Positions 51,398-53,519 of a stretch of DNA of 64,000 nucleotides are shown here, in pieces (within the stretch, counting starts at the first letter, position 1; each line of letters opens with the position of its first letter). Location of the stretch: contig NZ_CP152050.1 of the NCBI RefSeq assembly GCF_038632915.1, forward strand, positions 3,007,001-3,071,000, written 5' to 3'. The stretch is from Paenisporosarcina sp. FSL H8-0542 (GTDB lineage Bacteria > Bacillota > Bacilli > Bacillales_A > Planococcaceae). The notes beneath the pieces were generated by a model that searched no databases, had not been told where the DNA came from, and saw nothing but the letters and a program-made list of their open reading frames with translations. The position numbers were made by a program, and so were the translations under genes.

Positions 51398-51476
51398 GTT
51401 GCGTCATTTATTCCCTTGCACCAGTAATTCCCCCATATATCTACCTTCTGATTTGCTCTTTACGCTTCGCTGTAAA

Positions 51477-51507
51477 ATAAAAAACCTGATACGTATTCGC
51501 ACCAGGC
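51477..51507 (-). terminator. Terminator after the MFS gene
   Basis: Minus-strand 9-bp stem CCTGGTGCG/CGTATCAGG (two wobbles) followed by TTTTTTATTTT. Confidence 0.8.
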
Positions 51508-51518
51508 ACTTAATCAAT

Positions 51519-52715
51519 CTATGAAACTTTCATTTTCCTTTTCATCCGCCATAAGAAATAAAGCACCGGCAGGATTAACGACGCAGAAGAAGTAATCCCT
51601 CCTGCAATGGACGTGTACAACGCCAGCATGCCGACGAGTGGTCCACCGGCAATCTGTCCGAATGCATCAAGCTGCCCAAACATGGAAAGTGTTGTGGCAC
51701 GCCCTTTTGATTCTATGCGTTCATTTGTAACGATGCTCATCAATGGATAGTTTACGTTTCTCAGTGCACTTGTCACCCAATACATGGCTACCGCCACCCA
51801 GAAATGACCTGTCCAGGCGAAAGCAATCATCGTTGCAATCAACACGGTGTTAGTAATCAATAATACATGTGCATAACGTCCTTTGACATGTCTCTCGACG
51901 AAACGAAGGATCACGATATTCAGTAAAAACGCGACCGCATAAAATGTACCGAACCAATAAACGTTCTCACTTTCCGACAACTGGTAGTCCACAATGAAAT
52001 GGGCGCCGTACAAACGATCGAAGCCTTCGCTGGCGAGCCCCCAAAACAATGTAACCATCGCAATACTGACCAACACTGTGTTCCCGCGAATTTGAGAAAC
52101 ACCAGCTTTGATGGTGTTCACCATATGCGTGACACCCGAAACACCTTTTTCACGAGTAACTCTAACAAACTTTGTTTCAGGCAGCTTGATGAAAGCCCAT
52201 ACCGCCATGACAATGAGCATGATTCCCGCAACAATAATTGCAATTTGTACGGACCAAATCGCTGCGATGGTCACACTTGCCAGAATTGCCGCAAAGCGAG
52301 CCAAGGATGAAAACTGCGATCCACGTAAGAACGTCTTTTCCAAACTTTTAGCGTTCAGTTCATCAGCAATCCAAGCTTGTTCCGCCCCGCTGATGAATGT
52401 CCAGCCGATTCCCCACATCGCAGAAGCTACCGCAATTGCCCAAAACTCAGGCGTACTGCCTTCCAAAACATGTGCTAACCCGATGACGAGTGTTCCGAAA
52501 GCAAGTGACCTTTTCCGTCCGAAATGATCCGCAAATAAACCTGTGGGCATTTCAAACAGTAAAACAGACACTTCCATAATCGTACCGATCAATACGAGTT
52601 GCAAAGCATTCAATTCCGCTTGAGTTACATAGTAAATGGCGTTTAATGTGAACACCATCTGAATGAAAAACGACCGTGAACTTGTTAAAGTGTAATAAAA
52701 ATTTTGTATACTCAA
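51519..52715 (-). CDS. MFS exporter with attenuator-type leader
   Basis: A 398-residue, 12-helix major facilitator protein. Motif A between helices 2 and 3 reads GLFADHFGRKRSL, and an acidic EMPTG in helix 2 is typical of drug exporters. A positive cytoplasmic loop (about residues 180-200) separates the halves. The start is TTG at 52713-52715, 9 nt after GGAGG. That ribosome binding site lies in a long hairpin, preceded by a 17-codon leader ORF and a strong promoter, which suggests inducible expression. The substrate is unknown; a ribosome-targeting drug would fit the leader. Confidence 0.85.
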   Translation of the reverse strand: MSIQNFYYTLTSSRSFFIQMVFTLNAIYYVTQAELNALQLVLIGTIMEVSVLLFEMPTGLFADHFGRKRSLAFGTLVIGLAHVLEGSTPEFWAIAVASAMWGIGWTFISGAEQAWIADELNAKSLEKTFLRGSQFSSLARFAAILASVTIAAIWSVQIAIIVAGIMLIVMAVWAFIKLPETKFVRVTREKGVSGVTHMVNTIKAGVSQIRGNTVLVSIAMVTLFWGLASEGFDRLYGAHFIVDYQLSESENVYWFGTFYAVAFLLNIVILRFVERHVKGRYAHVLLITNTVLIATMIAFAWTGHFWVAVAMYWVTSALRNVNYPLMSIVTNERIESKGRATTLSMFGQLDAFGQIAGGPLVGMLALYTSIAGGITSSASLILPVLYFLWRMKRKMKVS

Positions 52716-52725
52716 TTCTAATTTC

Positions 52726-52762
52726 CTCCGATTTTTTGATTTGGGTTAAAATCAAATCGGAG
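52726..52762 (-). promoter_or_regulatory. Ribosome-binding-site sequestering hairpin
   Basis: In the mRNA, CTCCGATTT (52762-52754) plus GATTT (52753-52749) pairs with AAATC (52742-52738) plus AAATCGGAG (52734-52726): 14 pairs, a 3-nt bulge and a 6-nt loop. The 3' arm contains four of the five bases of the GGAGG ribosome binding site (52729-52725) of the MFS gene. Confidence 0.7.
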
Positions 52763-52770
52763 TTCACATT

Positions 52771-52824
52771 TTATCCCAACATGCCCTCCAATTTGTATGC
52801 TGAAGCCAATGTTGTTCTTTTCAT
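52771..52824 (-). CDS. 17-residue leader peptide upstream of the MFS exporter
   Basis: ATG at 52822-52824, AGGGAGAG 9 nt upstream, TAA at 52771-52773; product MKRTTLASAYKLEGMLG. Its codons 11-13 (AAA TTG GAG, 52794-52786) can pair, with one wobble, with the same CTCCGATTT segment that otherwise sequesters the MFS ribosome binding site. The stop codon is 8 nt before that segment. No homologue is known to me; the call rests on position, ribosome binding site and RNA geometry. Confidence 0.6.
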   Translation of the reverse strand: MKRTTLASAYKLEGMLG

Positions 52825-52855
52825 ATGCTATCTCTCCCTCTCTAAAACTTTATTC

Positions 52856-52884
52856 ATTATAATTTCTATTCAGAATATTGTCAT
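52856..52884 (-). promoter_or_regulatory. Sigma-A promoter of the leader-MFS transcript
   Basis: ATGACA (52879-52884), 17-bp spacer, perfect TATAAT (52856-52861) on the minus strand. Transcription would start near 52849, about 25 nt before the leader ATG. Confidence 0.7.
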
Positions 52885-53053
52885 GGTTTTTTTAGATACA
52901 GAAGAGCGGATTTGGTGTGGGTAAATTAATCAGAGTATTTTATTCGGCATGAATGAACTTAGGGGTTCCTTGTTAGGATTCTTCAGGGCGTTCTTCCTGG
53001 GAGCCGGTGCAACACTTGACCGAGCTTTATTCCCATTCACCCATTTTTCCCCA

Positions 53054-53087
53054 ACAAAAAAGGCTGCCAGTAACATCGGCAGCCCCT
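53054..53087 (-). terminator. Terminator after the VOC gene
   Basis: Minus-strand GGCTGCC/GGCAGCC stem followed by six T. Confidence 0.8.
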
Positions 53088-53105
53088 ACTATCTTTCACA
53101 GTTTG

Positions 53106-53519
53106 TTATTCAGCTTGTCCTTTTTCGAAATTCAGATCCCATGTGTACCCAAACTGGTCGCGCACTTTAGCATATTTGGCTCCCCAAAACGTGTCCTGAA
53201 GTTCCATGATTGCCTGACCGCCCACTAATAATGCATTGTACAGACGATTCACTTCTTCTTCGCTTTCACATTCAATCATCAATGAAACATTTGTCGTACC
53301 TGATTCGCCAGGGGTTGAGGAGTCAGCAAGCATAATGCTGAAGTTTCCATTTGTTAAGTGACAATGCATAATGTAATCTGCCGCTTCAGGCGGTGATGGA
53401 AAATCACTATCCCCATATTTAAGCATACCTTGGTTCTCTAAACTGAATGTTTCTTCATAAAATACAGCTGCGTCTTTGGCATTTCCGTAAAACGTTAAAT
53501 ATGGAAGTACTGGTTTCAT
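53106..53519 (-). CDS. VOC/PhnB-like protein
   Basis: A 137-residue vicinal-oxygen-chelate-fold protein of the PhnB/3-demethylubiquinone-methyltransferase-like type: LPYLTFYGNAKDAAVFYEETF at the N-terminus (split over residues 5-25), MHCHLTNGNFSIMLAD in the middle and TFWGAKYAKVRDQFGYTWDL at the C-terminus. Many such proteins are small-molecule binding or uncharacterised. Single gene with its own terminator; function unknown. Confidence 0.82.
   Translation of the reverse strand: MKPVLPYLTFYGNAKDAAVFYEETFSLENQGMLKYGDSDFPSPPEAADYIMHCHLTNGNFSIMLADSSTPGESGTTNVSLMIECESEEEVNRLYNALLVGGQAIMELQDTFWGAKYAKVRDQFGYTWDLNFEKGQAE

Follow-up and report, generated by a model that had tools for sequence, protein, structure and literature searches.

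The leader and its exporter

The window, a stretch of 64,000 nucleotides of Paenisporosarcina sp. FSL H8-0542, carries on its minus strand a gene for a 398-residue exporter of the major facilitator superfamily (MFS), preceded by a promoter and a short leader open reading frame (ORF). Three RNA segments lie within and behind the leader, and the second of them can pair with either of the other two. The initial annotation had given coordinates and sequences for the promoter, the leader and the segments, as well as the spacing from the leader stop to segment 2; all of these agree with what was found. The features are as follows.

52856..52884, minus strand: promoter ATGACA-N17-TATAAT (ATGACA at 52884, TATAAT at 52861), with 11 of 12 consensus bases
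52834..52839, minus strand: leader ribosome-binding site AGGGAG, read from the sequence
52771..52824, minus strand: leader ORF of 17 codons, MKRTTLASAYKLEGMLG, with ATG at 52824 and the stop TAA at 52773-52771
52786..52794, minus strand: segment 1 (anti-sequestor), AAATTGGAG, starting at nt 31 of the leader
52789-52785, minus strand: GGAGG core of segment 1, beginning at nt 36 of the leader
52754..52762, minus strand: segment 2, CTCCGATTT, partner of segment 1 or segment 3, 8 nt past the leader stop
52726..52734, minus strand: segment 3, AAATCGGAG, containing the exporter's ribosome-binding site
52729-52725, minus strand: exporter ribosome-binding site GGAGG, in segment 3
51519..52715, minus strand: MFS exporter of 398 aa with a TTG start, TetA(P)-like in protein-family searches
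51484..51507, minus strand: terminator-like hairpin 3' of the exporter gene, from a consensus scan only

The promoter was the top one of five promoter-like sites that a consensus scan returned within 51400-53200, and near relatives have similar hexamers when judged by eye. A purine-rich leader ribosome-binding site is also present in an alignment of 23 loci. A terminator-like hairpin at 53059-53087, found by consensus scan, lies behind the upstream VOC-family gene, so that leader and exporter look like a separate transcript. The hairpin of segments 2 and 3 (2:3) proposed by the initial annotation is part of the minimum-energy structure of 52700-52850 (-28.3 kcal/mol, z -2.28; equalled by 1 of 200 shuffles). 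An Rfam search of the leader gave zero matches up to E 1, and no defence-system family was matched.

The exporter matches Pfam MFS_1, and its best NCBIfam matches are the pumps TetA(P) (NF000043) and Tet(40). Its scores of 255.9 and 222.6 bits are far under the curated cut-offs, which are 750 and 800 bits, respectively. Identity to an annotated TetA(P) of Paraclostridium is 35% over 374 aa, and similarity to Tet(L) is not significant (BLASTP best E 0.26). The protein contains E-x-P-x5-D-x3-R-K, motif A in its TetA(P) form; all 21 aligned orthologs share these residues. Relatives of the exporter that lack the leader score comparably against TetA(P) (203.7 to 310.6 bits for all four tested). The likeness was therefore rejected as proof of a tetracycline substrate: as a trait common to leaderless relatives, it means that the exporter protein alone cannot name what is pumped.

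Conservation and covariation of the leader

The exporter is matched at E 1e-100 or better in 30 of 261 genomes of the order. Among the best 80 of 185 relatives, further orthologs were found in Exiguobacterium, Bacillus mediterraneensis, Cytobacillus citreus, B. infantis, Metabacillus kandeliae and Bacillus sp. cl95. A leader ORF and the same three segments precede orthologs in Planococcaceae, Exiguobacterium and Bacillus-group genomes. Leader starts in the set of 38 loci were hand-picked from listed ORFs, and a strict automated test served as an independent check. It asked for a start codon with a ribosome-binding site, 5-25 codons, GGAG or GAGG within nt 35-42, and two stable pairings. The leader architecture exceeds chance, as 32 of 38 distinct ortholog upstream regions passed and 0 of 760 shuffles (by an approximate dinucleotide shuffle) did so; among 1080 other such shuffles there was one pass. 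None of 54 more distant MFS relatives (<45% identity) passed. The initial annotation had staked its proposal on a leader ORF and covarying segments being present beside orthologous exporters; the leader ORF is retained there and the segments covary.

The six regions missed by the strict test are L005 and L008 (altered core in both), L020 (insertion), L032, L054 (core GAAGG) and L056 (5 nt off). In L032, a broken gene, the test chose the wrong start; a frame change interrupts the pump gene and the leader still reads intact. In the Planococcaceae locus L020, some 190 extra nt (at about 1240-1440), in which an inverted repeat is visible by eye, lie between the leader and segment 2. Its leader is intact yet displaced, which makes the locus a natural test of the switch. 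In L008, the G001 ortholog, segment 1 is degenerate, a long gap precedes segment 2 and the predicted opening is almost zero; the switch may have been lost there.

The initial annotation held that segment 2 forms mutually exclusive pairings with segment 1 (1:2) and segment 3 (2:3), and both covary across genera. For 1:2, own partners give -16.31 kcal/mol and swapped partners -12.86 kcal/mol, a difference reached by 0 of 20000 permutations (n = 36). The corresponding values for 2:3 are -12.99 and -12.00 kcal/mol (4 of 20000, n = 36). With 15 clade representatives, two of them Kurthia and two from the window's own genus, the counts were 0 and 9 of 20000; the permutations ignore kinship, and this smaller version lessens its effect without removing it. 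Segment 2 had been picked in the 38-locus set by its best own pairing, which favours own pairs, so the swap test was repeated on the whole middle region, and the values given here come from that repeat. The sets used for pairing and for folding with a ribosome hold 36 of the 38 loci, the near-identical L016 and the broken L032 being omitted; L020 is omitted from them as well. In the alignment, which covers 23 of the 38 loci and includes L030 with its segment 2 out of register, 85.6% of the cells of helix 1:2 are paired. Its covariation score was reached by 0 of 500 shuffles and by no slid version of the helix. Changes on both sides are seen in 6 of 13 pairs, a count matched by 22 of 500 shuffles.

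A covariance model built on the same 23 loci gave a single strong match in the organism's own genome (next best E 0.12) and 35 matches at E 0.05 or better in 398 Bacilli genomes. Eleven of the 35 were strong (E 1.5e-9 or better): six of these, all from one genus, precede this pump, and five lie at pump loci already known. Nineteen of the 24 weaker matches were inspected and 16 judged to be ordinary gene starts. The other three, L158, L170 and L172, are not ordinary gene starts, yet no pump lies downstream; L172, by reading, is inside a coding sequence in another frame. The filters of this search were strict, and true weak members, e.g., the Bacillus-group leaders found locally, may escape it. 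A gene search in the 398 genomes produced nine matches, all within known groups. Another in 171 genomes produced six, including two new 8-codon leaders (L217 and L220), and a search for more short-leader genomes gave 0 of 39 in one family without the pump gene.

Spacing of the leader and its predicted response to a ribosome

Leader length varies among the 38 loci: 17 codons in 29, 8 in three, 10 in one, 16 in two, 18 in two and 19 in one. Codon 13 is GAG in 33 of the 38. What is kept constant is how far segment 1 lies from the leader start codon, about 36 nt; this regularity emerged from the present analysis and does not come from the literature. In 35 of 38 loci the first plain GG[AG]G core is found at nt 36 of the leader. 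The figure rises to 37 of 38 when L008 and L054 are admitted with their altered cores, two forms that were added to the pattern after inspection. The 23-locus alignment contains zero gaps between leader start and segment 1. The other spacers vary. Measured with a fixed 8-nt partner (misplaced in L008 and L031), the distance from stop to segment 2 takes 12 values and that from segment 2 to the Shine-Dalgarno (SD) sequence 17; the fixed partner replaced the best-pairing segment 2, on whose choice spacer counts would otherwise depend. In several loci another in-frame ATG lies two codons further upstream; translation from it would shift their ruler by 6 nt.

The 8-codon leaders occur in five Bacillus-group loci, with the peptides MLKEVLVS, MTIEVLVS and MQIEVSAL seen in Cytobacillus, B. 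infantis and Bacillus sp. cl95, and the two added by the gene search, L217 and L220, have the same spacing. In these loci segment 1 lies past the stop and its distance from the start is unchanged. The spacing thus persists where both the peptide and the position of the stop have changed. The Metabacillus kandeliae leader has 10 codons and a core that is 5 nt off.

The effect of a translating ribosome was modelled by placing it at a set leader codon with its downstream edge at +16 and folding the remainder of the RNA; such equilibrium folding ignores the order of RNA synthesis. The mean predicted probability that the exporter's site is open, P(SD open), fell from 0.39 for a ribosome at codons 2-5 to 0.06 for one at codon 8 (36 loci), and was 0.05 with segment 1 barred from pairing. 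The change was more than twofold in 34 of 36 loci in each comparison (against codon 8 and against blocked segment 1), and the predicted switching against codon 8 was absent in L005 and L031. In the window's own leader, P(SD open) was 0.49-0.61 at sampled codons 1 to 7 and 0.17-0.19 at codons 8 to 16, a switch point between codons 7 and 8 that follows partly from the chosen footprint edge.

These predictions suggest how the leader might work. A ribosome at codons 2-5 would leave segment 1 free to capture segment 2, and the pump's site would open; at codon 8 it would cover segment 1, the 2:3 hairpin would form and the site would close. The pump would then be turned on when ribosomes are kept at the start codon by a drug, tetracycline being the likeliest. 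The peptide would be of little importance and the distance from leader start to segment 1 decisive. In living E. coli cells, according to the accessible text of one report (PMC12121999), ribosomes stalled by tetracycline sit on start codons and their downstream edge lies at +16 to +18; with this footprint, nt 31 onward, where segment 1 starts, stays free. A 2026 review, in its accessible part, describes toeprinting in which tetracycline arrests ribosomes at the start codon (PMC13410324). Retapamulin and lincomycin stall initiating ribosomes in the case of vmlR, as far as the accessible text of that study goes (PMC9226507). Other drugs that stall initiation are also compatible with the model, which leaves tetracycline as the likeliest inducer but not the sole one. 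We infer that a ribosome inhibitor would induce the exporter. The locus probably represents a tet(L)/tet(K)-type translational attenuator before a chromosomal TetA(P)-like pump, one that responds to ribosomes detained at the leader start, with tetracycline as the probable cause.

Known leaders and competing explanations

The tet(L) and tet(K) leaders share with this one a leader ORF with its own ribosome-binding site, a segment 2 after the stop and a segment 3 that is the pump's site. This type of leader has segment 1 in codons 12-14, at codon 13 in both tet(L) (AAA GAG GGA) and the tet(K)-like L187 (TAT GAG GTG). In tet(L), for example, GAG is codon 13, GCCCTC follows 9 nt past the stop and GGAGGG is the pump's site; one tet(L) leader is annotated 'tetracycline resistance efflux system leader peptide'. 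Fifteen loci of the Tet(L)/Tet(K) family were compared (45-100% identity; several are near-identical, so fewer than 15 are independent, and two are tet(K)-like, sharing the identity and coverage of annotated tet(K)); the core is at nt 37 in 12 and at nt 40 in three. With the masked ribosome, P(SD open) changes more than 1.5-fold in 10 of the 15 when codon 9 is the reference and in 9 of the 15 when the reference is a blocked segment 1, an effect weaker than in the exporter orthologs. Nine more distant genes (36-39% identity, L198-L206) showed no such leader by eye. The tet(L) leader L185 has one base fewer near its end than L184, and its ORF extends to 32 codons through segments 2 and 3.

The likeness is one of leader type and not of pump family, as the exporter here does not belong to the Tet(L)/Tet(K) family. 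The leader peptide also differs, with 20 codons in tet(L) and 16 in the tet(K)-like loci, and the covariance model of the present leader fails to find the tet(L) leader. A single design thus appears on two unrelated pump families, which in our view would reflect convergence or a descent too old to see. A related pump, the Paraclostridium tetA(P) of L144, has a different kind of leader in the one region examined: at 500-640, upstream of the gene, a terminator-like hairpin and another short ORF were seen by eye. Outside the Bacillota, the toiL upstream ORF of E. coli topAI likewise acts as a sensor: when tetracycline stalls a ribosome on its start codon, a ribosome-binding site further downstream becomes exposed (PMC12121999). 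That system belongs to another gene and another phylum, and the upstream ORF itself pairs with the downstream site; a third segment is not mentioned in the accessible text (PMC12121999).

Several alternatives to sensing of a start-held ribosome by simple unmasking were weighed. In one, the pump is reached only by ribosomes that have translated or bound the leader, and the drug alters the number passed on. Stasinopoulos, Farr and Bechhofer reportedly put forward a re-initiation model for tet(L) in 1998. The anatomy here is the same as that of tet(L), and segment 1 is itself Shine-Dalgarno-like and near the leader stop; however, the anatomy is compatible with control that needs no re-initiation, and the stop of the 8-codon leaders is far from the pump start. 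Sequence data cannot separate re-initiation from unmasking, and we regard such a hand-off as rather unlikely.

The initial annotation compared the leader with the erm and cat attenuators, in which the position of the leader ribosome likewise decides access to the ribosome-binding site of the resistance gene. These depend on arrest at a specific peptide. Applied to the present leader, this model would have a drug stall the ribosome near the end of the leader, on a particular nascent peptide or at the stop codon, so that this ribosome displaces segment 2 and uncovers the pump's site. Two observations point that way. First, with a ribosome at codon 17 the window's site is predicted to be open (0.61), and a stall close to the leader stop might therefore be another route to induction; 8 of 32 long-leader loci reach 0.30 or more in this position, but 24 of 32 stay below 0.2. 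Second, the C-terminal residues S/L-E-G-M-L recur among leaders, although they overlap or adjoin the pairing segment. In codons 2-10, 76 of 302 single-nucleotide codon differences, counted in near (and non-independent) pairs among 31 long leaders, were synonymous against a neutral 0.27, which gives no sign of selection on the peptide. This makes stalling on a particular nascent peptide unlikely, and peptide-specific arrest is disfavoured. The variable stop-to-segment-2 distance and the 8-codon leaders, which terminate ahead of segment 1, also speak against it, and we consider the erm/cat model quite unlikely. The leader ORF and the exclusive segments of the initial annotation stand; the nearest systems found are tet(L) and tet(K) and not erm and cat.

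It is very unlikely that the leader is a general one that senses no drug and is conserved only for folding or mRNA stability. Six of 36 loci do open above 0.6 without any ribosome, but the start codon, the reading frame and the start-to-segment-1 distance are kept while the peptide drifts. Transcription attenuation, with the hairpins as terminator and antiterminator, is described for tet(M) and vmlR in the accessible parts of two reports (PMC5418344, PMC9226507), but is extremely unlikely here and was rejected, since a consensus scan found no terminator-like site between promoter and pump start and no run of T follows segment 3.

We see an even chance that the two unrelated pump families share one ruler, which places segment 1 about 36-37 nt from the leader start whatever the peptide or stop, is set by the footprint of a start-held ribosome and senses the place of the stalled ribosome, not the peptide. 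In the 8-codon subtype, the stop would then be placed where a terminating ribosome just covers segment 1. If true, pumps induced by tetracycline and other start-codon stallers could generally be recognised in sequence by the shared ruler.

No published account of this leader was found in a literature search with thin coverage of subscription journals. Judged by its sequence features, the leader is conserved and built like a translational attenuator; it is a further tet(L)/tet(K)-type leader, here before a pump of another family, and its fixed start distance is unexpected. A built-in drug-inducible pump is thus predicted in many Bacillales, where such control was not found described. The start-to-segment-1 distance amounts to a sequence rule that would explain how differing peptides accompany a constant anatomy, and it could be used to locate further pumps.
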